The translations under genes and the position numbers were made by a program. 64,000 nt of DNA from Bacteroidota bacterium. GTDB taxonomy: Bacteria > Bacteroidota > Bacteroidia > SXHM01. Positions 28,678-55,270 of the stretch are shown piece after piece (the first letter of the stretch is position 1; every line of letters starts with the position of its first letter). The stretch is from NCBI GenBank assembly GCA_947479755.1, contig CANKAM010000001.1, positions 124,001 through 188,000 on the forward strand, read 5' to 3'. The notes below the pieces were generated by a model that saw only the letters and a list, made by a program, of their open reading frames with translations, had not been told where the DNA came from and ran no database searches.

Positions 28678-30294
28678 CTAAGGCGCAATACGAACTCCCC
28701 GACCACCGATATAGATGTCCCGACCCGTGATCGTGAGAGCCGCAATGCTGCGGTCAGACACACGCAGGGAGATCGCATTAATGTTCCAATCGCCCCCGCG
28801 GTAGCCTGCGCCTGTGGCTCCGGTTACCTCGCCTACAACCAGACCGGGCCATAGTATTTCATTAGCATTGCCGTTGGTGCTTAATACCCCATTGCCCTGT
28901 ATGCCTGTAAATGCCCTGCCTGTTGCATTACCCACCGTTACCGGGCGCTCCCACAGATTACCGCTCATTTCCATAATGCCATAGTAAGTGGCACCCGATT
29001 GCACCCTGTTGGTGCTGCCTGTGGCAAACACGCCAACCCGCATGGGACCCTGCACGCTTCCACTGAAGTTATAAACTGCGTTAGCACCGGCAGTGTTAGT
29101 AGTTTCATTGCTTGCTCCGCCATTGGTAATATTGTTTGCCCGGGTAATGGCGGTGCTGCCCCAGGCATATTCATTTGCTACGGCTGCTATGGTGCCTCGG
29201 CAGGCTTTTTCATATTCCAGTTCCGTAATAGGGCGCAAACCGCACCAATCCAAATAGGCTGATACATCCATATAACTTAGCCAATTGCATGCGAGCCACT
29301 GCCCGTCTGCCGTTTCGCCCCCTGTGCCGTTGCCGTTCAGGTCGCAATAAAAAGTGATGGGGTTGCTGGTATTTATGGTGGCAGCGCAGCGTATGCCATT
29401 GCGGGCTTGCAGGGTTGCGGTATTGCTCATTACATAGCGGTTGGTAACGCTGGTGATGCCTGCGGCAAGGTTCGTCCCGGTACGGGTGTTTTGCTGGGCG
29501 CGGGTAAGGGTATTTAAAAAATCGACATACTGCTGCTGGGTAATTTCGTATTTCATGCAGTAGAAAGCCTTGTAACCTTTAGGGTAAGCGGCAGGCAAGG
29601 GTTTGGTGGTAGTATTATTAAAGTCATCGGCTGTAACCATGCCGGTGGCATTATTATTAGCCAAATTGCCGTTAGCAGTGCCGCCTAATGTGAGGGTGTC
29701 TTCGGAGGTAATGCTGAGCGGGGTATTGGTGCTGCCATTGCGGAACTGCCCACTCACAGAAGTAAAAGAGCCATCGCCTGCGGCAAAACTACCCTGCGGC
29801 ACATACACCATTTCTATGGCATATACCTGCACATCCACTATATCATTATCGAATACGCCATTGGCTCCGTAGTTCCAGCGCAGTCGTATATTGGTACCTC
29901 CATTAACACCCCATATTGAACTTGTAAAATGAAGAAACGCCCCTATGCCCGGATTGGTAGTAGCATTAAAGGCAGAGCTGGGGGTTTGCAGGCCAACATC
30001 AAAGGTGTTGCCTGCGGGTGGGGTGTGCCCGTTATTATTTAATTTGGCATGTCTCCATGCACCGCTGCCTACGCGGAATTTTACAAATATCCAGGCGGCA
30101 TCCCAGCTTGTTCCGGTATTCCAACTGTTGGGCCATTGCATATCGAATTGCACCATGGTGAAGTTGGCGGCATTGTTGGTGCCGGCTGTAACATCCTGCC
30201 CGGTAAGCACTACATTGCTAACGGTGATGTTGTTTGCAGATGCAGTTATGCTGCAAGCTAAGAGGGTGAGGAGGAGGAGGAGGAGTTTCTTCAT
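28678..30294 (-). CDS. Secreted formylglycine-enzyme-fold (SUMF1/C-type-lectin) protein, candidate DGR target
   Basis: A 538-residue protein with signal peptide (MKKLLLLLLTLLACSITASA). Residues about 20-190 form a Bacteroidota-specific N-terminal domain; residues about 225-538 are an FGE/SUMF1 fold (YCMKYEITQQQYVDFLNTLT, LDWCGLRPITELEYEKACRG, YYGIMEMSGNLWER, GGRGVR). In DGRs this fold displays variable residues at its C-terminus. Here the last segment YRGGDWNINAI to GGRGVRIAP has variable-type positions that are all NNC/NNT codons between constant codons. It is probably a surface ligand-binding protein rather than an enzyme. No reverse transcriptase is present in this window. Confidence 0.85.
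   Translation of the reverse strand: MKKLLLLLLTLLACSITASANNITVSNVVLTGQDVTAGTNNAANFTMVQFDMQWPNSWNTGTSWDAAWIFVKFRVGSGAWRHAKLNNNGHTPPAGNTFDVGLQTPSSAFNATTNPGIGAFLHFTSSIWGVNGGTNIRLRWNYGANGVFDNDIVDVQVYAIEMVYVPQGSFAAGDGSFTSVSGQFRNGSTNTPLSITSEDTLTLGGTANGNLANNNATGMVTADDFNNTTTKPLPAAYPKGYKAFYCMKYEITQQQYVDFLNTLTRAQQNTRTGTNLAAGITSVTNRYVMSNTATLQARNGIRCAATINTSNPITFYCDLNGNGTGGETADGQWLACNWLSYMDVSAYLDWCGLRPITELEYEKACRGTIAAVANEYAWGSTAITRANNITNGGASNETTNTAGANAVYNFSGSVQGPMRVGVFATGSTNRVQSGATYYGIMEMSGNLWERPVTVGNATGRAFTGIQGNGVLSTNGNANEILWPGLVVGEVTGATGAGYRGGDWNINAISLRVSDRSIAALTITGRDIYIGGRGVRIAP
28681..28800 (-). other. Putative DGR variable region (VR)
   Basis: Codons 499-538 of the FGE-fold protein. Fourteen codons between 502 and 529 (502, 504-506, 508, 516, 517, 520, 522, 524, 526-529) read GAT, AAC, ATT, AAT, ATC, AGC, ATT, CTC, ATC, GGT, GAC, ATC, TAT, ATC. 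All end in C or T and are what adenine-directed mutagenesis of AAC/AAT template codons gives. Intervening codons (TGG, GCG, CTG, CGT, GTG, CGG) are G/C-rich and spell the conserved LRVSDR and GGRGVR. The template repeat is not in the window, so direct proof is lacking. Confidence 0.75.
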
Positions 30295-30345: not shown

Positions 30346-30379
30346 AAACCTTCAAGGTTTTTAAAAACCTTGAAGGTTT
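30346..30379. repeat. 34-bp perfect palindrome
   Basis: AAACCTTCAAGGTTTTT (30346-30362) is followed directly by its reverse complement (30363-30379). It lies in the 101-bp gap between the FGE-fold gene and the unknown gene 30396-30893, just after an ATCGGTTATCGGTATTCGG stretch. Palindromes of this AACCTTCAAGG type recur in Bacteroidota intergenic regions; it can act as a bidirectional terminator. Confidence 0.75.
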
Positions 30380-32585: not shown

Positions 32586-32724
32586 AGATTCCTCCCTTCG
32601 GTCGGAATGACACGGAATTATTGTCAGATAGAGGTGAAAAGAAGGAGGCGCGCAAAGCGCGCCTCCTTCTTTTCACCTCCCTTTATATAAACCAATCTGT
32701 CATCCCGACCGAAGGGAGGGATCT
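32586..32724. repeat. MITE-like nested inverted repeat
   Basis: Outer arms of 27 bp at 32586-32612 and 32698-32724 pair at 25 of 27 positions; the core is CCTCCCTTCGGTCGG and its complement. Inside is a 23-bp perfect stem (32631-32653 with 32657-32679) with loop AAA. No protein is encoded. Elements with this CCCTTCGGTCGG end recur between Bacteroidota genes. Together with the promoter box and tandem repeat, it accounts for most of the 32007-32778 gap. Confidence 0.75.
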
Positions 32725-41899: not shown

Positions 41900-42004
41900 A
41901 TGTATGATTAATCTGCAATACTTCCGTTTAGGGTGGTGGTGTAACAATTAACCAAATTTATAATTGAAAATTGACTACCGAAAAAATGCTTTTCCCTCAT
42001 ATTG

Positions 42005-42052
42005 AACTATGACTCGAATCATTGTTTTAAAAATTACTATAAAATACTTTTG
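42005..42052 (+). promoter_or_regulatory. FNR-type box plus perfect -7 element, fnr-hemerythrin promoter
   Basis: Box AACTATGA-CTCGAA-TCATTGTT (42005-42026). TACTTTTG (42045-42052) matches all six specified bases of TAnnTTTG and is centred 33 bp from the box centre. Transcription would start near 42057, so translation starts at ATG 42086, not at a TTG inside the box. Confidence 0.75.
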
Positions 42053-42085
42053 ACCAATGTTAATAAAATTGAATATCAGTCAATA

Positions 42086-42823
42086 ATGGATTTAGAAGTT
42101 AAAAACCACTTTGTTTTAACTAAGAAAAAAGCCTGTAAAAACTGTTGGCTGAAGAGTTGTTTTAGCCAACTAAAAGACAGTAACATAAATAGTAGTACGG
42201 TACTAATTAATAACATCGTCAGGTTGAAAAAAGGGGAAGGCTTAATAAAATCTGGAGATGCTATTTCGGGCTTATATTGTATAAGAGATGGAACTGTTAA
42301 AATTTACAAAACAGGAAATAATAATAAAGAATACATTTTCTGGCGTGCTGGGAAAGGGGAAATTGTTGGTTTAAATTCATTTCTCAACTGTGAAATATTC
42401 TCTTTTTCTGCAACAGCATTAAGTAATGTTAGTGCCTGTTACATTTCCGCTTTAAGTATGCACAAACTGATTAACGAACAACCATTTGTTATTGACGGTC
42501 TGATGCAAAATCTTTGCAGTAAAATGAATTTCATGGAAAGCAGGATAACAAATATTTCAACCAGAAGAAAAAAGGAACAGATTGTAGATTTCCTTTTTCT
42601 TTTAACAAAACAAAATACTGATAAAATACATTGTTCAGTTTCTGTAAATTATTCGGTTGCAGATATTGGAAATTTAATGGGTTTATCAAGAAGTTATGTA
42701 AATAAAGTGCTTCGCGACTTAGAAAAAATGGCCATACTGAAAATCAATAGAAATGAAATATTGATTCACGATATAACTGCATTGGGAGTTGTTTGTGAAT
42801 TTTCTAAAAAAATCCATATTTAA
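42086..42823 (+). CDS. Crp/FNR-family regulator 1 with N-terminal Cys cluster
   Basis: About 245 residues. The N-terminus holds ACKNCWLKSC (C17, C20, C25), the CxxCxxxxC spacing of Fe-S FNR proteins. A cyclic-nucleotide-fold domain follows (GLIKSGDAISGLYCIRDGTVK), then a C-terminal HTH (YSVADIGNLMGLSRSYVNKVLRDLEK). The recognition helix lacks the Glu and Arg that contact TGA in E. coli FNR, so its DNA preference may differ. It is preceded by an FNR-type box (autoregulation) and cotranscribed with hemerythrin. It likely senses oxygen or NO. Confidence 0.85.
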   Translation: MDLEVKNHFVLTKKKACKNCWLKSCFSQLKDSNINSSTVLINNIVRLKKGEGLIKSGDAISGLYCIRDGTVKIYKTGNNNKEYIFWRAGKGEIVGLNSFLNCEIFSFSATALSNVSACYISALSMHKLINEQPFVIDGLMQNLCSKMNFMESRITNISTRRKKEQIVDFLFLLTKQNTDKIHCSVSVNYSVADIGNLMGLSRSYVNKVLRDLEKMAILKINRNEILIHDITALGVVCEFSKKIHI

Positions 42824-43384: not shown

Positions 43385-44104
43385 CTATTCTGTAAGGTTA
43401 GCTATTTTTATCAGTTCTTTCAGATTCAATATTTTTATTTTCTTTCCTATCAATTCAATCACTTTGCTTTTATTTAAATCTGATATAATTCTTATGGCAG
43501 TTTCGGTAGTTGTGCCTGAAATATTACCAATTGATTCGCGAGTAAGGGTTGTTTTTATTGTTGCATTGTCTTCCTCTACTCCAAAGAAGTCTTTAAGCAT
43601 TAATAATGTTTCTGAGACTCTTTCGCGAACATGTTTTTGAACTAAGTTCATTGCTTTTACTTCAGCAGATTTTAAATCTGAAGATAAAAGCTTCATAATC
43701 TGAAGTGCTAGAGTATGATTATTTGCTATTTGATTTTGATATACTGATCTTGGAAAATAACATATTAGTGAATCTTCTATGGCTGTTGCTGATGCATGGT
43801 AATTATCATTGCTTAAAAGTGCACGGTATCCAATTACATTTCCCTTTTTTGCAAGTCGCAAAATCTGGTCATTACCATCATAGCCAAGTTTATGAATTTT
43901 GACCTTTCCTGAATAAATACAAAATAATCCCTGAGGATTATTTCCTTCAAAAAAAACAATCTGACCCTTTTTGAAAAAAATAAAAGATTTATTTTCTGAT
44001 AGGTTTGCAAGCTCAATCTTGTTGAGAACACAGAAAATGCTACTCTGTGCAGTTGGACACTCATCACAAGAACTTACTTCAATTATTCCTTTATTGGCGT
44101 GCAC
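43385..44104 (-). CDS. Crp/FNR-family regulator 2 with N-terminal Cys cluster
   Basis: About 239 residues from GTG 44104. Cys ligands C13, C16 and C25 (SCDECPTAQSSIFC) suggest an Fe-S cluster. The cNMP-fold domain (GQIVFFEGNNPQGLFCIYSGKVKIH) is followed by an HTH whose recognition helix TTETAIRII keeps the E..xR contacts of FNR, so it can read TGA half-sites and is the better candidate to bind the repeated box. An in-frame ATG at 44146 exists, but it lies upstream of the predicted -7 element (44125-44132) and would not be transcribed. Convergent with hemerythrin, 22 bp apart. Confidence 0.82.
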   Translation of the reverse strand: MHANKGIIEVSSCDECPTAQSSIFCVLNKIELANLSENKSFIFFKKGQIVFFEGNNPQGLFCIYSGKVKIHKLGYDGNDQILRLAKKGNVIGYRALLSNDNYHASATAIEDSLICYFPRSVYQNQIANNHTLALQIMKLLSSDLKSAEVKAMNLVQKHVRERVSETLLMLKDFFGVEEDNATIKTTLTRESIGNISGTTTETAIRIISDLNKSKVIELIGKKIKILNLKELIKIANLTE

Positions 44105-44124
44105 AAGTATATATTTAAAACATA

Positions 44125-44172
44125 CAAATATTGTATTTTCCATCATACCATAATATGATTAATATCATATAA
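44125..44172 (-). promoter_or_regulatory. FNR-type box plus -7 element, fnr-2 promoter
   Basis: Box TAATATGA-TTAATA-TCATATAA (44151-44172; fully symmetric arms with C/G replaced by A/T). AATATTTG (44125-44132, 5 of 6 of TAnnTTTG) is centred 33 bp away on the minus strand. Implies autoregulation and a start of transcription near 44120. Confidence 0.55.
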
Positions 44173-47639: not shown

Positions 47640-48029
47640 TTAGTTATTCTTTGCACCCTCGTCAATCCACCTTAAAATAATATCAATATCATTTTGCGAA
47701 AGGGGTGTTCCTGTTGAAGGCATAACCGGGGCAATAACTCCTGTTATTCTCTTATATAACGTGCTTTGTTCAGGATTTATTGTGTCTATATAAGGAGCAT
47801 TGTATCCTGTTGCCGAGAGTTCATACCATGAACAGCATGATTTTAAGTTCAGATAAGAGTGATTTTCATCGTGGCAGGAAATGCAATATGAATCAAAAAT
47901 AGGCTGTATCTCCGTTGAAAAACTAACCGATGGAACAACAGTTGGCGGAACAATATATGGACCGCTGTCTTTTTCGCAGGAAAACAGAGTAATTGAAATC
48001 AAGATTGTGGTAATTAGTTTTATCTTCAT
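47640..48029 (-). CDS. Monohaem cytochrome c-like lipoprotein
   Basis: A 129-residue lipoprotein (signal ending LFSC). One haem site CISCHD is preceded by STEIQPIFDSY, and the C-terminus LSQNDIDIILRWIDEGAKNN is typical of planctomycete-type cytochrome c domains. An extra SCCSW pair of Cys lies after the haem motif. Its start overlaps the DUF5777 gene by 4 bp. Likely electron carrier on the periplasmic or outer face of the outer membrane. Confidence 0.8.
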   Translation of the reverse strand: MKIKLITTILISITLFSCEKDSGPYIVPPTVVPSVSFSTEIQPIFDSYCISCHDENHSYLNLKSCCSWYELSATGYNAPYIDTINPEQSTLYKRITGVIAPVMPSTGTPLSQNDIDIILRWIDEGAKNN

Positions 48030-48916
48030 TGAGGTGGTAATTTTTTCTTTTTATACCAGAATACTCTTCTCATATTGAAGCCGAGTGCAAAGTTTCCTTT
48101 CAGGTAGTTAAATGAGTTTTTGGTGTATGCGTCCTGTTCAAGCAATTCATTGGTTGAAGAAATAACAATCTGGAAAGTATGACCAACTGTTCCCGATTCC
48201 CATGCAATGGACAATGGATAGTCATTGTTTCCCGGACGATTATTAAAACGGTAGGCATATTCAAAAATCACAGATGATTTAAGACTTGTTTTTATTGAGC
48301 CACCAATCGGAATGCTGAATGTCAGATTTTCTGAGTTTGCAGAAGCCAGATTTTTGTAGATGATTACAGGTGCTATCTGAAATGAAATGCGTTCAGAAAA
48401 TTTTCGGGCAATTATTACTTGAAAATTATATGCCAGACGGTGGCTGGATTTGTATTCAAAGGGTGTTACCGTATCATTGAAATAAGCGTAGTTAGGCACT
48501 TTGGGGAATTTGTCGGTCATAATCCCCATATTAAAATATGCGGCTATTGAAAGTGGCATTTTATTATCCTCGGTTTGACGGAAAATAAGATACTTGGCTT
48601 CAAGGTCAATTGTTTTCCCGGTCTTGGTTCTTCCAGCGCCAACGTATAAATTCTTGAGTATCGGAAATGCAAAACCAAAACGGATGTTTGCAGGCAAATC
48701 CAATCCGAGAAACTGTTGATACATTGAACTATCTGCCCCTATCATTCCAAAACGATGACGGATACTGAAGTCAAATCCTTTCTGAGGAATTACCTCGGTG
48801 GTTTGCATATTGACTAACTGAATACTACGAAAAGTATTGAAAACATAAGATTTCTCCTCCTGAGCAGAACCATTCAGCGACAAAAAAAATAAAATAATTA
48901 GTATACTTTTTCTCAT
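48026..48916 (-). CDS. DUF5777-like outer-membrane beta-barrel protein
   Basis: A 296-residue protein with signal peptide ending GSAQ, then FNTFRSIQLVNMQTTEVIPQKGFDFSIRHRFG, the recognisable opening of DUF5777 barrels, and many amphipathic strands to the C-terminus. Overlaps both neighbouring cytochrome genes by 4 bp. DUF5777 proteins repeatedly sit next to cytochromes in Bacteroidota, which would fit a barrel sheath or scaffold for electron transfer; this is inference. Confidence 0.82.
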   Translation of the reverse strand: MRKSILIILFFLSLNGSAQEEKSYVFNTFRSIQLVNMQTTEVIPQKGFDFSIRHRFGMIGADSSMYQQFLGLDLPANIRFGFAFPILKNLYVGAGRTKTGKTIDLEAKYLIFRQTEDNKMPLSIAAYFNMGIMTDKFPKVPNYAYFNDTVTPFEYKSSHRLAYNFQVIIARKFSERISFQIAPVIIYKNLASANSENLTFSIPIGGSIKTSLKSSVIFEYAYRFNNRPGNNDYPLSIAWESGTVGHTFQIVISSTNELLEQDAYTKNSFNYLKGNFALGFNMRRVFWYKKKKLPPQ

Positions 48917-49326
48917 TCTGTTTTAGCCGTTTTACCAAGTTCACGGATATAGCACACCAATTTCCATCGTTGTTGTTTTGAGAACAGCTGTTCGTATGCC
49001 GGCATTTGTCCTCGGCCCTTTGTTATTTTCCATAATAGGGCACCGTCTGTTTCCTTTAATAGCTTATTAGAAGTATGGTCGGCTGGTTTTGTAGTTAATC
49101 CTACTGCTGCCGGACCATTGCCTTTGCCGCTGTAGCCGTGACACGACCAGCAGGTGCTTTCGTAAATTTTTTTTCCTTCGGCAATTGCCTTTGCATTATT
49201 TAAAAAAGGATTTGTAAGCGTATCAAAAGAAACAGGCGCAACCCATTCATCATTGCCGGCTTGTTTGTTCCCGTTAAGAATTATCCAACCCGTAAACAAG
49301 GCGATAATTATACTCAGTGTTTTCAT
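48913..49326 (-). CDS. Monohaem cytochrome c
   Basis: About 137 residues from ATG 49326, giving a signal-anchor (MKTLSIIIALFTGWIIL). Haem site CWSCHG (C59-H63) with KGNGPAAVGLTTKPADHT after it, and MPAYEQLF supplies the probable Met ligand. A soluble or inner-membrane-anchored periplasmic carrier. It starts 4 bp after the polyferredoxin gene, which makes it the likely electron acceptor of that protein. Confidence 0.85.
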   Translation of the reverse strand: MKTLSIIIALFTGWIILNGNKQAGNDEWVAPVSFDTLTNPFLNNAKAIAEGKKIYESTCWSCHGYSGKGNGPAAVGLTTKPADHTSNKLLKETDGALLWKITKGRGQMPAYEQLFSKQQRWKLVCYIRELGKTAKTE

Positions 49327-49330
49327 GTGT

Positions 49331-51373
49331 TCAGTTTTTGTGTTGAGCAATTAATTTTAATTCTTCTGCTTTCTGTTTGTGAAAATCAGATTCTGTTTTT
49401 TTACCATCACTATCAAGCGCTTTTGACAAACCAATATGTGCATTAGCATAATCGGGTTTAATTGAAATTGCGGTTTGCAAATATTCTATTGCCTGTTTGC
49501 TTCTTCCTGCTCGCAGGAAAAGCATGCCAAGATTATAATATGCCTGAGAATTTTCGGGTTGCAAGCGGATAAGTTCCGATAGATGATTAATAGCAAGATT
49601 ATCTTTATTCATTCTGATATAAATTGCACTCAGGTTGTTGTGAATAAGTGCAGAGCCCGGCATAACTTCGTTGCACTTTAAAAGATACTTTTCTGCTTCG
49701 GCAAGTTGTCCGCTTTGGTTAAGAATAACGCCATAGGCAAGCATTGCTTCCATGTTTTCAGGATTATCTTTTATACTCTGCCTGTAATTATTCATGGCTG
49801 AAGAACCAAAACCGTTTTTTTCTTCAATGTGCCCTAATGTCAGATTTGCTTCACTCCTGATTTTTAATTCCTGAACAGTTTTTAAATTGTCATTTGCTAT
49901 TTTCTGAAGTTCATTCACTGCATCATTCTCCCTGTTTGACACAAACAAAATCTTAGCAAGCCTTAAACGAGCTTCATAATCTGTAGGATTTTGAGTAAGC
50001 ATTTTATCCAGGTATTTTTCTGCATTCTTATAATCCTTGTTGGCTAAATAAATTGCAGCAAGTTCACGGTTTAAACTCAGCGGGGTATGAAGTCCCCATG
50101 ATGCTGCCATTTCAAGATGTTGCTTTGCAGACTTCAAAATTAATTTACCCTCTTTTGAATTTGCACTTGCATGAAACCCTTCGCCTTTTTTAACAATTTT
50201 ATTGTATTCCAAGTCGCCACGGTAGCTGTGGAAATGAACAAAGGCACTGTGAACAGTGAACAGAAGAATAACTAAAATGCTGCCGGCAAAATATCTTCCC
50301 AAAACATTGATTTTACCACCTTGTTTCAGTGTGAATTTTCCAAGATGAACATATTCAGCCCTGAAAAGTCGGAGAAATAAAATACTGAACCATGCCAGCA
50401 ACACTGCAATAGTGATGGCAAGCAGAAAAGCAACTGAATCATATAATCCGCGAAAAATAACAACAAAAATAAAAGTGAATATTCCCATAAGAGCATCTTC
50501 GACCCACGAAAAACTGTAATACGTTTTATGCTCTTTCAGTTTATGAAATGATTGAAAAAATGAGGGTTTTGTAAACCCGAATTTTATAGCATTATTAGGG
50601 CAAACAGCTACACAATCCAAATCTTTCAGGCAGTTTGAATTGACCACTTTGCCAAACTGTTCAATTTCTTTGTGAACTATTATATGTGAGCTGCAATGAG
50701 CAGTGCAAATGCCACATTGATTGCAATCACCGGTGAGTTTTATTTTTCCCGGTGCAAGCTTATCGGTAATGGAAAAAATAACACCATAGGGGCATACCTT
50801 CTGACAGAAACTGCGTGTTCCCAGAAAATAAATAATAGCAAATCCGCAAACAAAAAAAGTGAAAAGTGTGATAGGAATGCTTGGCAGGTTTCTCCAGAAA
50901 TCATTAGTAATAAATGATGCCCATCCCTGCGAATCGGTTTGTATATGCAATTTCACCATTTCTTCTCCCGCTATCATTCGCGAAACCTGAGGCCACACAA
51001 AAAGATACAGCATAGCAGCTATCGGCACAAGTATAAAAGCACGTGACTGAATGGGTTTGGGTTTAATGTGCAGTTTATTCAGCAACCATTCCGAGAAATC
51101 CTGCAAGGCAAGAATGTGGCAAGCCCATGAACAGAAAAACCTGCCAAAAATGATTGTTCCGATCATGGTAACAACCATAAAAATAAAACCGGCTGTCATT
51201 ATGCCAAGGTGCAGTGTATAAAGCACCTCATTAAGTTCAAGCGGGGCAAGTGTATTGCCATACATTTTCCAATGGACAATGTGAATGCCCATTAAAACAT
51301 ATACACTTATTAATGCTGCTGCTCTCCAACGGCTGTATCTTTTCTTTCTTTCTAAATTAGCTTTTGCACTCAT
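49331..51373 (-). CDS. NapH/CcoG-like polyferredoxin fused to TPR domain
   Basis: A 680-residue protein. Residues 1-400 form a membrane ferredoxin: GRFFCSWACH and GTRSFCQKVCPYG (the paired CxxxC motifs of NapH/NosR/CcoG), two [4Fe-4S] sets CNQCGICTAHC and CLKDLDCVAVCPNNAI, and about eight membrane spans. Residues about 430-670 are six or so TPRs (YAEAEKYL-like units: NREAEKYLDKMLTQNPTDY, AYYNLGMLFLRAGRSKQAIEYL). NapH-type proteins take electrons from quinol to periplasmic partners. The TPR tail could dock the cytochromes encoded next to it. Confidence 0.88.
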   Translation of the reverse strand: MSAKANLERKKRYSRWRAAALISVYVLMGIHIVHWKMYGNTLAPLELNEVLYTLHLGIMTAGFIFMVVTMIGTIIFGRFFCSWACHILALQDFSEWLLNKLHIKPKPIQSRAFILVPIAAMLYLFVWPQVSRMIAGEEMVKLHIQTDSQGWASFITNDFWRNLPSIPITLFTFFVCGFAIIYFLGTRSFCQKVCPYGVIFSITDKLAPGKIKLTGDCNQCGICTAHCSSHIIVHKEIEQFGKVVNSNCLKDLDCVAVCPNNAIKFGFTKPSFFQSFHKLKEHKTYYSFSWVEDALMGIFTFIFVVIFRGLYDSVAFLLAITIAVLLAWFSILFLRLFRAEYVHLGKFTLKQGGKINVLGRYFAGSILVILLFTVHSAFVHFHSYRGDLEYNKIVKKGEGFHASANSKEGKLILKSAKQHLEMAASWGLHTPLSLNRELAAIYLANKDYKNAEKYLDKMLTQNPTDYEARLRLAKILFVSNRENDAVNELQKIANDNLKTVQELKIRSEANLTLGHIEEKNGFGSSAMNNYRQSIKDNPENMEAMLAYGVILNQSGQLAEAEKYLLKCNEVMPGSALIHNNLSAIYIRMNKDNLAINHLSELIRLQPENSQAYYNLGMLFLRAGRSKQAIEYLQTAISIKPDYANAHIGLSKALDSDGKKTESDFHKQKAEELKLIAQHKN

Positions 51374-51423
51374 AAGCCAACATGTTATTGATTAAAAAAC
51401 AGCTTCTGCACTAACAGCGTTGC

Positions 51424-53493
51424 TTATTGCACGACCAGTTTCCGGATATAATTTTTCTTCCCAATTTTTACATCAAGCATATAAATACCGCGCGAAACGT
51501 TTTCTAAACTGATAGCTGAAGTATGTTTACCTGAAAGATTTAAAAGTTGGCGCGAATATATTTCTCTGCCAACCAAATCGGTGACTTTTACTAAGGCATC
51601 ACCTGAGCCGGGCATAATAATATCAAGCGTAAAATTTCCGCTGGAAGGGTTAGGATAAACAGAAATGTTGTTACTCAAATCCCAGTTATCATCAATTCCG
51701 GTGCAATCTTCCACATAAGCAGTTACAGGAGTTTGAGGGCTGGTGCAGGTTGCTCCACCAAGTTCCACTTCCCAATCATAAAAGAAATAATAATACTGAG
51801 CACCCTGATTTGTTCCGGTAATAGAAAGTGTATCGGTCATGTTATAGGGGAACGTTACATTAGCATTATTCCTGTATAAATTAGGATTTGCGCTTGTTCT
51901 GATAGAATAATTTTTTCCGGGCGGAAGTGTAAAATTCAGATTTACTCTTGATTCACCATCCGGAATATCAAATATTCCGCCTTGCACCAGAATACCTATC
52001 TCGTCCCAGATTGTAATGGTTCTGTTTCCTGCACCGCTGGCATAAACCTTAACTGATTTTATTGTAACCGGGCGAAAAACATCAAACATCAGATAGCTTG
52101 AACTGTTGTTATTTGTTCCGGCACCGTTGTTATCTGTTTTTCCAACGTAATTAATACTTCCCGGAAAAACAGTTTGGTCTTGTGTATAGTATGTTGTTGT
52201 TGTTGTTAATATAGGTGTAACAAATGTGTTACCTGTTCCAACGGCAGCTCCATTGTCATCAAACCAGTTAATGTTATTCCCAGTTGCTCCAAGTGTGGCT
52301 GAAGTTCCGCTACATACTGTATCATCAGTGCCGGTAGGAGCAGCTGGTGTGGCGCTTGAAATAACAGTATAAGATGCAGAGCCCGATCCGCAATAGTTGG
52401 TAACCGCTACCGAATATGTTCCGGCACCGGCCATAATACTTTGGGTTGTTTCGGTGGTTGACCACAAATAGCTTAATCCGGCAGTAGCAGTAAGCTTTAT
52501 CTGCTCATTGCTTCCGCTGCACACATAATCGCTGCGGTCTGGTGTAATTTTAATTACCGGGCTGCCTGATGGCAACTGTTGAGTAAGTGTAAATGGAATT
52601 GCAGTAAAGTTGTTGGTTTCATCTTCTTCAAGAAAATAATCGTGTGGGTCAACTTCATATACAATCCAATAATCGCCATTGCAGGTTCCCTCCGGAATAT
52701 TAATCCACATACCATCTAAACTTTCATTGTAAATATCTTCATATCCGCTTGAAATACCTTGTCCGTAAGAGGAGCATCCGTAACTTCCGCCACCAAGTCC
52801 CCAGTTAGGAAAATCATTATTCTGAAGATTATTTCCCGCATTATAAACTGTATTGTCGTCTTTGCAATGATTGGTAAAATCGCTGCACTCATTGTAATCC
52901 ATTAAACAAAAGCCGAGTTTATGACCTGTTCCTACAATACTCCATTCTGTGGGGTCAATAATTGCAGGATTTTTTATTCTGAGTGTAAAAATTCCCCACT
53001 CGTCATTATAAAGCGAACCTCCTCCGTGGTAGGTAACAGGACCCATAAACCTTGTCCACGCGCTCATAGTGTTTCCTGTTTTGTGGTAAATCCTTTGCAA
53101 GGGCATTTGCATAGGTATCGGGTTGCCATTGGCGCATGTGAAGTTTGAAACGTTTGCCAATACTGTATCGCTGCCGCAAAGAAAATAGGACCATGTTACT
53201 CCGGCAGAATCCCATTGCCCGAAAACATTTAAAGGTCCGTGCCCTATATTGGGTGTAGCGCCACTGACTTTTAGTCTTCCATTGTTAACACCGTTTCCGG
53301 TTTGTGCATATTCTGTTGGTCCGCTGGAATATGACTGCAGAGCTGCCCAGGAAATGGTGATGTCGGGAAGTAGATCGCAATTGGTTTGTCCCTGAGTTTC
53401 GCATTGACAGGTTGTGGCATTTGTGGTGGTGCATTGCGCAAAACCTGCATAATGCACAATAATGGCTGCTAAAAGTAAAAATGTTTTTTTCAT
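51424..53493 (-). CDS. T9SS-sorted lysyl-oxidase-like protein, copper site degenerate
   Basis: A 689-residue secreted protein. Residues about 40-305 follow the lysyl-oxidase-like pattern: GRLKVSGATPNIGHGPLNV, GHKLGFCLMDYNEC, GISSGYEDIYNESLDGMWIN, VDPHDYFLEEDETNNF. In the copper-binding block, where relatives have several alternating His, this protein has YHGGGSLYNDEWGIFTLR (155-172), leaving one His. Ig-like/PKD-like regions follow, then a T9SS type A domain (YPNPSSGNFTLDI...VSRGIYMLDVKIG). It is probably surface-displayed and binding rather than oxidising. Third gene counted from the operon end that carries the FNR box. Confidence 0.8.
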   Translation of the reverse strand: MKKTFLLLAAIIVHYAGFAQCTTTNATTCQCETQGQTNCDLLPDITISWAALQSYSSGPTEYAQTGNGVNNGRLKVSGATPNIGHGPLNVFGQWDSAGVTWSYFLCGSDTVLANVSNFTCANGNPIPMQMPLQRIYHKTGNTMSAWTRFMGPVTYHGGGSLYNDEWGIFTLRIKNPAIIDPTEWSIVGTGHKLGFCLMDYNECSDFTNHCKDDNTVYNAGNNLQNNDFPNWGLGGGSYGCSSYGQGISSGYEDIYNESLDGMWINIPEGTCNGDYWIVYEVDPHDYFLEEDETNNFTAIPFTLTQQLPSGSPVIKITPDRSDYVCSGSNEQIKLTATAGLSYLWSTTETTQSIMAGAGTYSVAVTNYCGSGSASYTVISSATPAAPTGTDDTVCSGTSATLGATGNNINWFDDNGAAVGTGNTFVTPILTTTTTYYTQDQTVFPGSINYVGKTDNNGAGTNNNSSSYLMFDVFRPVTIKSVKVYASGAGNRTITIWDEIGILVQGGIFDIPDGESRVNLNFTLPPGKNYSIRTSANPNLYRNNANVTFPYNMTDTLSITGTNQGAQYYYFFYDWEVELGGATCTSPQTPVTAYVEDCTGIDDNWDLSNNISVYPNPSSGNFTLDIIMPGSGDALVKVTDLVGREIYSRQLLNLSGKHTSAISLENVSRGIYMLDVKIGKKNYIRKLVVQ

Positions 53494-53524
53494 TGGTTTA
53501 ATATTTAATTATTAAATAAGTTTG

Positions 53525-54343
53525 TTACAGGACAATAATTTTTTTCGCAAACGTTTTATCAGCTATAGTTACACTGACAAAATATATTCCCGGTGTAATA
53601 TGTTCGGGCAAAGGAATTAATCCTGAACTGCTGCCACCGCTATAAATTATATCAGCTTCACCTCCTTCTATATTATACATTCTTACTGTTATCTGTTTTG
53701 CAAGAGCTGGCGTGTTGATGGTGATAAAATCTTTCGCAGGGTTGGGATATACAACTATATCATTTACACTTTGTATAGATGCCACCCCAACAGTTATGTC
53801 CTCCTGAACAGTATATGTTGTTGTAAAAATTGAATCACCGTTATTTGAACTGTTATTGTTGGTTGCATTAAATGCACCGTAAAAAGTTACCGGGCCGGTT
53901 CCTGCTTCGGGTGCTATCCACTCAAAATTCCATGATTTGGAATCAATGCCTGTGGTTCCGGATACCGAATGTGTTATATAGGTTCCCATGCCGGTAATCT
54001 GTGTTTCATTAGTTATCTGAACCATGTTGCCTAAAACATTTCCATGGTCGTTCATTGGCGATACTTGAAAACCAAATTTTGAATGCCCGGGTCTTACTAT
54101 GTTTGCCAAAATGATATAGGTGTTTCCGGGAACATAACCGGTAAGAGGAATATCTGAACTTAGTATGCCATCGAGTGGTGTTTCTGCATTTCCATGGTGG
54201 CAATATGTTGCGCAGGTTTGGTCGTCAAAAGGTGAACCGGTAAATCCATCGGGTGCACCTGATGTGTAACTGGTAACATCAGTAACAACAAGCGCCCCGA
54301 CAATAATTGCCAATAACAGGAGTATTATCTTTTTTCTCAACAT
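53525..54343 (-). CDS. Choice-of-anchor V domain protein with T9SS signal and CxxxCH motif
   Basis: About 272 residues from ATG 54343; an earlier in-frame ATG at 54400 lies upstream of the predicted -7 element and within the operator, so it is rejected. Signal peptide, then SGAPDGFTGSPFDDQTCATYCHHGNAE: relatives normally have CxxCH here, while this one has CxxxCH (C44, C48, H49). A reelin/choice-of-anchor V beta domain follows (PGNTYIILANIVRPGHSKFGFQ), then a T9SS sorting domain (VVYPNPAKDFITI). First gene of the eleven-gene redox operon. Confidence 0.82.
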   Translation of the reverse strand: MLRKKIILLLLAIIVGALVVTDVTSYTSGAPDGFTGSPFDDQTCATYCHHGNAETPLDGILSSDIPLTGYVPGNTYIILANIVRPGHSKFGFQVSPMNDHGNVLGNMVQITNETQITGMGTYITHSVSGTTGIDSKSWNFEWIAPEAGTGPVTFYGAFNATNNNSSNNGDSIFTTTYTVQEDITVGVASIQSVNDIVVYPNPAKDFITINTPALAKQITVRMYNIEGGEADIIYSGGSSSGLIPLPEHITPGIYFVSVTIADKTFAKKIIVL

Positions 54344-54356
54344 ATTATTTTGGGAA

Positions 54357-54415
54357 CAAATTAATTGAATGATTAAGCCAATAACTATGATTTCGGTCAT
54401 AGTTATTGGCTTAAT
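54357..54415 (-). promoter_or_regulatory. 44-bp perfect palindrome containing an FNR-type box, plus -7 element
   Basis: The box AACTATGA-TTTCGG-TCATAGTT (54383-54404) is the centre of a longer perfect inverted repeat with 19-bp arms (54372-54390 and 54397-54415). TTAATTTG (54357-54364, 5 of 6 of TAnnTTTG) is centred 33 bp away on the minus strand, giving a start near 54352 and ATG 54343. Controls the eleven-gene redox operon. Confidence 0.75.
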
Positions 54416-55223
54416 GAAATATTTATAATATCGTAATATTAAATAGCGATTAGGGTTGCCAATCCTGTCAATAATGAACGTCTTAAAAAGATTTAAAATT
54501 ATCTTCTTGACTTAAAAAGTGACTGAAGTTGTTTCGTACTGTATCTTGGCCAAGAAAATGTGCCTTTAAAGTTATGAAGCGGGTAAAATCAGATAGTCTG
54601 GTTAATAGCATCTATTGTTTGAATAATTAACGGAAGAACTATTAATGCTATCTCGTATTATCAACTCACCATGAAAATCTAATATTTTCCGTGTTTGACT
54701 TAAGTATTATTTATTAGCTATCACTGGGTTTTAGAATAGTCTGCTATTTTTAGCCGGCAAGACTTCCCGGAATTTTCGAGATTTCCTGAGATTTTGCGAT
54801 TAATTACAAAATTTGGCTATCTCAGGTGAGCGATAACAACAGCGTTAAAGTGAATTTAAGTTGAATCCAAAAATCCTCATTACTCTTTGAAAGACAGAAA
54901 TCTATAAATAATGTGAATAATTATTTTTTCACCAATTGGATTTTTTTCTTAGTATTGTTTTGAATTAGCTCACCAATGAATGCTAAATGGCCATAAAAAG
55001 CAGTAGCCCAACAGAGGCTAATACCTAGGTGGAAAAACAGGTGGATATTTTAGGTGGAATTGGTGGATTTTATACACGTGCTTGCTCAATACAGAATCGC
55101 AGATTATCGTTAAAAAATAAAATAGTGAAAATCCTAGTCAACCAGGATTTTGAATATAAAAAATGGCCTCAAAACTATCTGGAAATCAGCGAGTTATTTT
55201 GCCCCCTACGGGCTACACTAATT
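54416..55223. other. Intergenic region without a supported gene
   Basis: About 800 bp between the redox operon promoter and the aro operon end. A 73-codon frame at 55029-55250 (plus) has no signal peptide, no recognised motif and overlaps the terminator, so I do not call it. A hairpin AAAATCCT-N8-AGGATTTT lies at 55128-55151. The plus-strand terminator at its right end suggests a transcript from the left, possibly a small RNA or the remains of a lost gene. No tRNA was seen. Confidence 0.5.
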
Positions 55224-55270
55224 AAGCCTGAAATTATTGCTAATCAATAGTTTCAGGCTTTTTTATTTTC
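55224..55270 (+). terminator. Rho-independent terminator (plus strand)
   Basis: AAGCCTGAAA (55224-55233) and TTTCAGGCTT (55251-55260) form a perfect 10-bp stem with a 17-base loop, followed by TTTTATTTTC. In the minus direction no T-run follows, so it primarily ends plus-strand transcripts although no plus-strand gene precedes it. Confidence 0.75.

Follow-up and report, generated by a model that had tools for sequence, protein, structure and literature searches.

A CRP/FNR-type box in the 64,000-nucleotide stretch of DNA analysed here (the window) lies at the centre of a perfect palindrome of 44 bp, which raises the question whether the additional symmetry belongs to the operator, serves another purpose or has no function at all. 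The original prediction had offered three readings: a high-affinity or doubly occupied operator, a cruciform, or an attenuating hairpin for transcripts coming from the right. We consider it probable that the box is an FNR-type class II operator centred at -41.5 through which the operon gene1-gene5 is activated, that the outer arms lie outside the recognised sequence and that they arose by one template switch. The palindrome is more likely an accident of mutation than a new type of regulatory element. The features discussed are listed in Table 1.

Table 1. Palindrome, promoter, operon and likely regulator in the window.
Feature	Position	Strand	Remarks
Palindrome arms	54372-54390 + 54397-54415	.	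19 nt each, 100% complementary
CRP/FNR-type box AACTATGA-N6-TCATAGTT	54383..54404	.	22 bp, centre 54393.5
Outer left arm ATTAAGCCAAT, beyond box	54372..54382	.	symmetry not shared by orthologues or other boxes
Outer right arm ATTGGCTTAAT, beyond box	54405..54415	.	symmetry not shared by orthologues or other boxes
-7-like promoter element TTAATTTG	54357..54364	-	ends 37 bp from box centre; same spacing in G002
Predicted transcription start	54352	-	from box centre at -41.5
gene1: secreted, C-terminal sorting domain, first in operon	53525..54343	-	Por_Secre_tail, Pfam 6.1e-10
gene2: secreted, lysyl-oxidase-like, Ig_7 and sorting domains	51424..53493	-	82% identity in G002
gene3: membrane 4Fe-4S ferredoxin with TPR repeats	49331..51373	-	73% in G002
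gene4: c-type cytochrome	48913..49350	-	78% in G002
gene5: DUF5777 beta-barrel protein	48026..48916	-	87% in G002
Likely cognate regulator, FNR-type	43385..44146	-	cNMP_binding and HTH_Crp_2, E..R recognition helix

The inverted repeat spans 54372-54415 and its arms, separated by a spacer of 6 nt, pair at all 19 positions. Coordinates, arm length and pairing are therefore exactly those originally described. The box itself (AACTATGATTTCGGTCATAGTT, of the TGA-N6-TCA type) supplies 8 of the 19 pairs; the symmetry continues for a further 11 bp on each side, and the arms do exceed the usual half-site, as had been claimed. In a 64-kb window of the same composition, 6.5e-6 repeats with arms of at least 19 nt and a loop of at most 12 nt are expected, and the arms in 10 first-order Markov windows reached 12 nt at most. 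The palindrome is non-random. Hairpins with perfect arms of at least 13 nt are not rare as such, since 29 of them were found in 480,000 bases of the genome. The 38 ATGA-N6-TCAT sites found in 519,468 bases of G000, the genome analysed here, have perfect arms of 4 nt (20 sites), 5 nt (nine), 6 nt (three), 7 nt (two), 8 nt (two), 9 nt (one) and 19 nt (one). The sole 19-nt arm is that of the palindrome at 54372-54415, which is the only long perfect hairpin built on a box among these sites. With the next longest arm at 9 nt, the statement that this box is unlike any other one here holds.

No further copy of the 44-bp segment was found in the seven genomes of the genus, except for the orthologue in genome G004. 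A dispersed repeat or mobile hairpin was rejected on this ground; the second match in each genome is the segment matching itself on the other strand. A known RNA family was rejected as well, because the hits were confined to microRNA models below threshold, of a type that any hairpin will match, and a tmRNA fragment (E 0.58). Other perfect symmetries were observed in the course of the analysis. A loop-free palindrome of 34 bp with two near-palindromic 15-mers (AAACCTTCAAGGTTT and AAACCTTGAAGGTTT) is located at 30346-30379, upstream of the gene at 28678-30294. Very G+C-rich perfect hairpins lie at 32631-32679 and in two further loci (L188:3703-3747, L188:5666-5714 and L197:6907-6951); with arms of 21-23 nt, a 3-nt loop and a GCGCGC or GGGCGAGCG core they apparently represent a recurring intergenic family.

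The exact box TATGA-N6-TCATA occurs at 14 sites in the 3.9-Mb genome, compared to three sites for the reversed control pattern, and the shorter ATGA-N6-TCAT is found 132 times compared to 44 times for its control. The core recurs above chance, as is expected for a CRP/FNR-type operator, and the original assignment of an FNR-type box is supported by the genome-wide counts. Eight of the 14 exact boxes are clustered in a single 104-kb stretch of contig C1 (74-178 kb). At seven of the exact boxes (7 of their 28 sides, p ~3e-9) the distance from the centre to the end of a TTTG is exactly 37 bp, while any other distance up to 64 bp is seen at most once among the 28 sides. These boxes are L001, L003, L004, L006, L007, L008 (the box at 54383-54404) and L014; in the case of L004, the TTTG and the norC-like gene are on opposite sides of the box. 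The other seven exact boxes do not have a TTTG at 37 bp. A fixed spacing, as expected for class II promoters, is found at the promoter described here, at half of the exact boxes in all and in genome G002.

In CRP/FNR promoters, the class II activator site is a box centred at -41.5. Judging from the 37-bp spacing between box and TTTG, the box would thus be a class II activator site at -41.5, with transcription starting near 54352. The element that ends with this TTTG resembles TAnnTTTG, the -7 element of Bacteroidota (PMC7366714). A -33 element was not recognised at the 54357-54364 promoter. With a start at approximately 54352 and the gene1 start codon at 54343, the palindrome would be located upstream of, and outside, the operon's own mRNA. 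The ATG at 54400, which lies within the palindrome, was considered as start codon of gene1 and rejected, because the orthologue in G002 starts at the methionine equivalent to 54343. A divergent symmetric promoter directed to the right was likewise rejected: a TTTG at 37 bp is missing on the plus-strand side, and there is no supported gene before 55203.

The order gene1-gene5 is identical in G002, with protein identities of 62-87%, and the adjoining regulator is also present there. A collection search with gene1 returned mostly loci that have only the sorting tail in common with it, and a search of plasmids with gene2 gave no match.

Two CRP/FNR proteins are encoded in the window (42002-42823 and 43385-44146), and a third one is found on the integrative island described below (L002 at 506-1216). 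The protein encoded at 43385-44146 is the most likely regulator of the operon. Compared with known structures it matches FNR with an E-value of 1.5e-22, and its best match is 2gau (E 2.8e-34). It has TETAIR where FNR has VETISR. Its cysteines in SSCDECP...FC align with the N-terminal Cys region of FNR, the spacing of the third one being x7 and not x5, and the cysteine in LICYFP aligns with an FNR cysteine (MVCEIP). A family regulator with an E..R recognition helix is thus encoded close to the box, as expected for a CRP/FNR-type operator, and it has a box of its own just upstream, at 44154-44169. According to the rule given in PMC1274295, R180 is associated with a G3 in the box and E181 with an A6. 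At the position of this CRP R180/E181 pair the regulator has kept the E and lacks the R, and the box has A3 and A6, which agrees with the rule as stated there but is not proof. In G002, two exact boxes 38 bp apart precede the orthologue of this regulator (L133 14626-14680; G002:C7:40626-40679), which suggests autoregulation.

Other boxes on the island precede a norCB-like cytochrome c/COX1-type pair, a pyruvate-formate-lyase-type pair, a gene for a ScdA-type di-iron repair protein and the gene for the regulator 43385-44146 itself. The genes behind these boxes point to an anaerobic or nitrogen-oxide regulon, with a corresponding putative inducing signal. We propose that a dimer of the CRP/FNR family, most likely the regulator 43385-44146, would occupy the 22-bp box at -41.5 and recruit RNA polymerase to the -7 element by class II activation. 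The leftward operon gene1-gene5 would then be switched on under low oxygen or nitrogen-oxide conditions, and the outer 11 bp on each side would have no part in operator recognition.

An intact tRNA-Glu is located at C1:63765-63837 of G000 and is directly followed by a gene for a tyrosine integrase (Phage_int_SAM_5, Phage_integrase). The 14 bp at 55203-55216 (CCCCTACGGGCTAC) are a tRNA-Glu 3' end beside aroA, the duplicated end at C1:179203. With the intact tRNA-Glu and the integrase on the left and the duplicated end on the right, the window up to approximately 55.2 kb is inside an integrated element. The region C1:63765-179216 (window 1-55216) is a tRNA-Glu integrative island of ~115 kb, which carries all eight clustered boxes. 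Genomes G002, G003 and G006 have an intact tRNA-Glu beside aroA at the corresponding place. In G004 the same island junctions are present, on two contigs; in G002 the tRNA-Glu-aroA junction is uninterrupted and the operon is encoded on another contig.

Several observations were made at the ends of this island. GGTGGA repeats (ACAGGTGGATATTTT and neighbours), which are possible integrase arm sites, are located near both ends (55030-55080 and C1:63890-63915). At the right end, approximately 780 bp without a recognisable gene (54420-55202) separate the promoter from the attachment site. A plus-strand terminator without a gene of its own is found at 55224-55260 and is conserved in G002, G003 and G006. 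It is the old tRNA-Glu terminator, which was left behind by the insertion of the island. A new small RNA ending at this terminator was rejected, since the terminator and the preceding 3' end are the remnant of the tRNA-Glu locus.

To what extent box and outer arms are conserved was analysed with gene2, which was searched in 395 genomes of the class; 47 of these had a match at E <= 1e-60, and 30 loci were examined. The search at the order level covers the same seven genomes as that of the genus. gene1 is located upstream of gene2 in six of the 30 loci, and among these six the 19-nt arms are found in G000 and G004. The orthologous box in G032 is exact and has 8 perfect pairs. In G002 the box has one mismatch and 4 perfect pairs, and the TTTG is found at 37 bp despite the diverged sequence. 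No box with up to one mismatch was detected at the gene1-gene2 operons of G049 and G081. Of the 24 loci that lack gene1, nine have a box with no more than one mismatch at a distance of at most 160 bp from gene2; that of L223 (at -17) is perhaps part of a coding sequence. At greater distances upstream of gene2, these loci contain one further box of this quality (L231). The operator is thus conserved at the orthologous promoters of G002 (one mismatch) and G032 (exact). Its recurrence in front of orthologous operons shows that the box has long belonged to the operon, unlike the long arms. The comparison of the arms in relatives had been set beforehand as a test of the original prediction, and the outer arms failed it, with 4 and 8 perfect pairs in G002 and G032, respectively.

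The other boxes give the same picture. In 21 of them (13 from G000, eight from G002) positions 1-5 are paired by choice of the pattern, positions 6-10 are paired in 9-11 of the 21 and position 11 in six. Pairing at positions 12-22 amounts to 26.0%, which is also the value expected from the composition (26.0%). An extended class of 44-bp operators, in which the outer symmetry is kept in relatives or at other boxes, was therefore not found. The long arms are an outlier and not the end of a trend. A high affinity conferred by the outer arms, as originally suggested, is not supported: the orthologous promoters of G002 and G032 lack the outer symmetry, and beyond 22 bp symmetry is at chance level at the 21 other boxes. 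The segment 54383-54404 appears to be an ordinary FNR-type operator, at which binding and activation are predicted, and the extra 11 bp of symmetry seem to be lineage-specific and are most likely without function.

The palindrome is present letter for letter in G004, which is also the outcome expected from strong selection. The window from 47.9 to 64.0 kb is 94.1% identical overall to contig C35 of G004. The tract 49303-55025, which spans the promoter, gene1, gene2 and gene3, is nearly identical: over its 5.7 kb it shows 9 differences, with the stretch 53059-55025 free of any, against an identity of mostly 85-97% in the 500-bp bins around it. Since the G004 palindrome is located inside a near-identical tract with diverged flanks, it does not represent independent conservation and is uninformative on selection. 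Operon and promoter have evidently been exchanged recently between the two species; a chimeric piece shared by both assemblies is less likely.

Template switching has been described as a route to perfect stems that perfects imperfect inverted repeats (PMC8794818). As there is no sign of selection for the outer symmetry, a one-step template switch is the simplest explanation for the arms: at the hairpin formed by the box dyad, one flank would have been copied onto the other in a single step. The arm lengths go from 9 to 19 nt with nothing in between, as would be expected from one event. No close relative was found that still has the sequence from before the switch, and the comparison with G002 (by eye) gave no answer as to which arm served as source.

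Four other explanations, and a combination of two elements, were weighed against this reading. In RNA transcribed from the right, or in antisense RNA from the left, the palindrome could form a hairpin that acts as terminator or stabiliser and insulates the operon. The predicted RNA hairpin is stable (-25.3 kcal/mol for the minus strand and -27.5 kcal/mol for the plus strand, z -9.3 and -7.3, respectively), and many perfect hairpins of the genome resemble terminators in having A/T-rich stem bases. We nevertheless regard such a hairpin as unlikely. An intrinsic terminator or attenuator has a G+C-rich stem followed by a T-tract; the stem of the palindrome has a G+C content of 26%, a T-tract is missing, and the terminator scan did not report the palindrome yet called 55224-55260. 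The nearest upstream gene on the same strand, aroA, ends at 55263, which is 0.85 kb away, and the predicted start at approximately 54352 is downstream of the palindrome, both of which argue against the attenuating hairpin of the original prediction. In addition, the centre of the palindrome coincides exactly with that of the promoter box, which would be needless for a terminator.

Under negative supercoiling the palindrome might be extruded as a cruciform that excludes FNR and the polymerase, and the promoter would then read supercoiling in addition to the FNR signal. Each 44-nt strand folds as DNA with -17.2 or -17.8 kcal/mol compared to -5.0 kcal/mol for the 22-bp box alone, so that a cruciform is thermodynamically plausible according to the folding model, and its location at approximately -20 to -63 would block the promoter. 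However, the outer symmetry is not conserved and the identical G004 copy lies in the recently shared tract, which makes this explanation decidedly unlikely.

The box is flanked by a second dyad in the outer arms (GCCAAT/ATTGGC), to which a second dimer or another regulator that recognises a dyad (GCCAA...TTGGC) might bind, as in the proposed high-affinity or doubly occupied operator. Within 54372-54415, though, no second ATGA/TCAT box was found at up to two mismatches, which speaks against double occupancy, and the orthologous promoters, the other boxes and the lack of a second copy in the genus outside G004 make this very unlikely. Less probable still is a combination, in which the palindrome would be a supercoiling-driven cruciform competing with FNR and polymerase that arose by one dyad-seeded template switch and was spread between the sister species together with the operon. 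A chance extension of an ordinary box is the least probable of all, because even with 8 of the 19 pairs already provided by the box the remaining 11 have a probability of 3.7e-7 per box, or ~5e-5 when all 132 genomic ATGA-N6-TCAT sites are taken into account.

The favoured reading, an ordinary operator with arms added in one step, can be compared with known systems. CRP/FNR class II operators (E. coli FNR, TTGAT-N4-ATCAA; CRP and HcpR1, wTGTGA-N6-TCACAw) have a TGA-N6-TCA dyad core of ~22 bp in common with the box described here. Like these operators, the box is centred at a predicted -41.5 and located near family regulators and anaerobic or nitrogen-oxide genes. It differs from them in the A preceding TGA (TATGA), where FNR has a T and CRP a G, in the 44-bp perfect symmetry at one site and in the use of the Bacteroidota -7 element. 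A description of a TATGA half-site was not found in the literature searched, although it may nonetheless have been published. HcpR2 of Bacteroides and others is, according to PMC1274295, likewise a CRP/FNR-type regulator of nitrogen-oxide stress genes in Bacteroidota, but the half-site reported there is different (GTAAC-N4-GTTAC). The quasipalindrome template switch as presented in PMC8794818 predicts the conversion of an imperfect into a long perfect inverted repeat in a single step. Unlike in the cases of that kind, the event would here be deduced from its end product, and the seed would be a transcription-factor operator.

If the template switch is true, the locus would be a clean example of a transcription-factor dyad that seeded a long perfect palindrome without selection, and a caution against equating long symmetry with long operators. 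The analysis yields a concrete description of an FNR-type regulon in a little-studied Bacteroidota genus, with its TATGA half-site, its spacing to the -7 element, a candidate regulator and the integrative island on which it is located. The island and the geometry of the regulon are more useful results than the palindrome itself.
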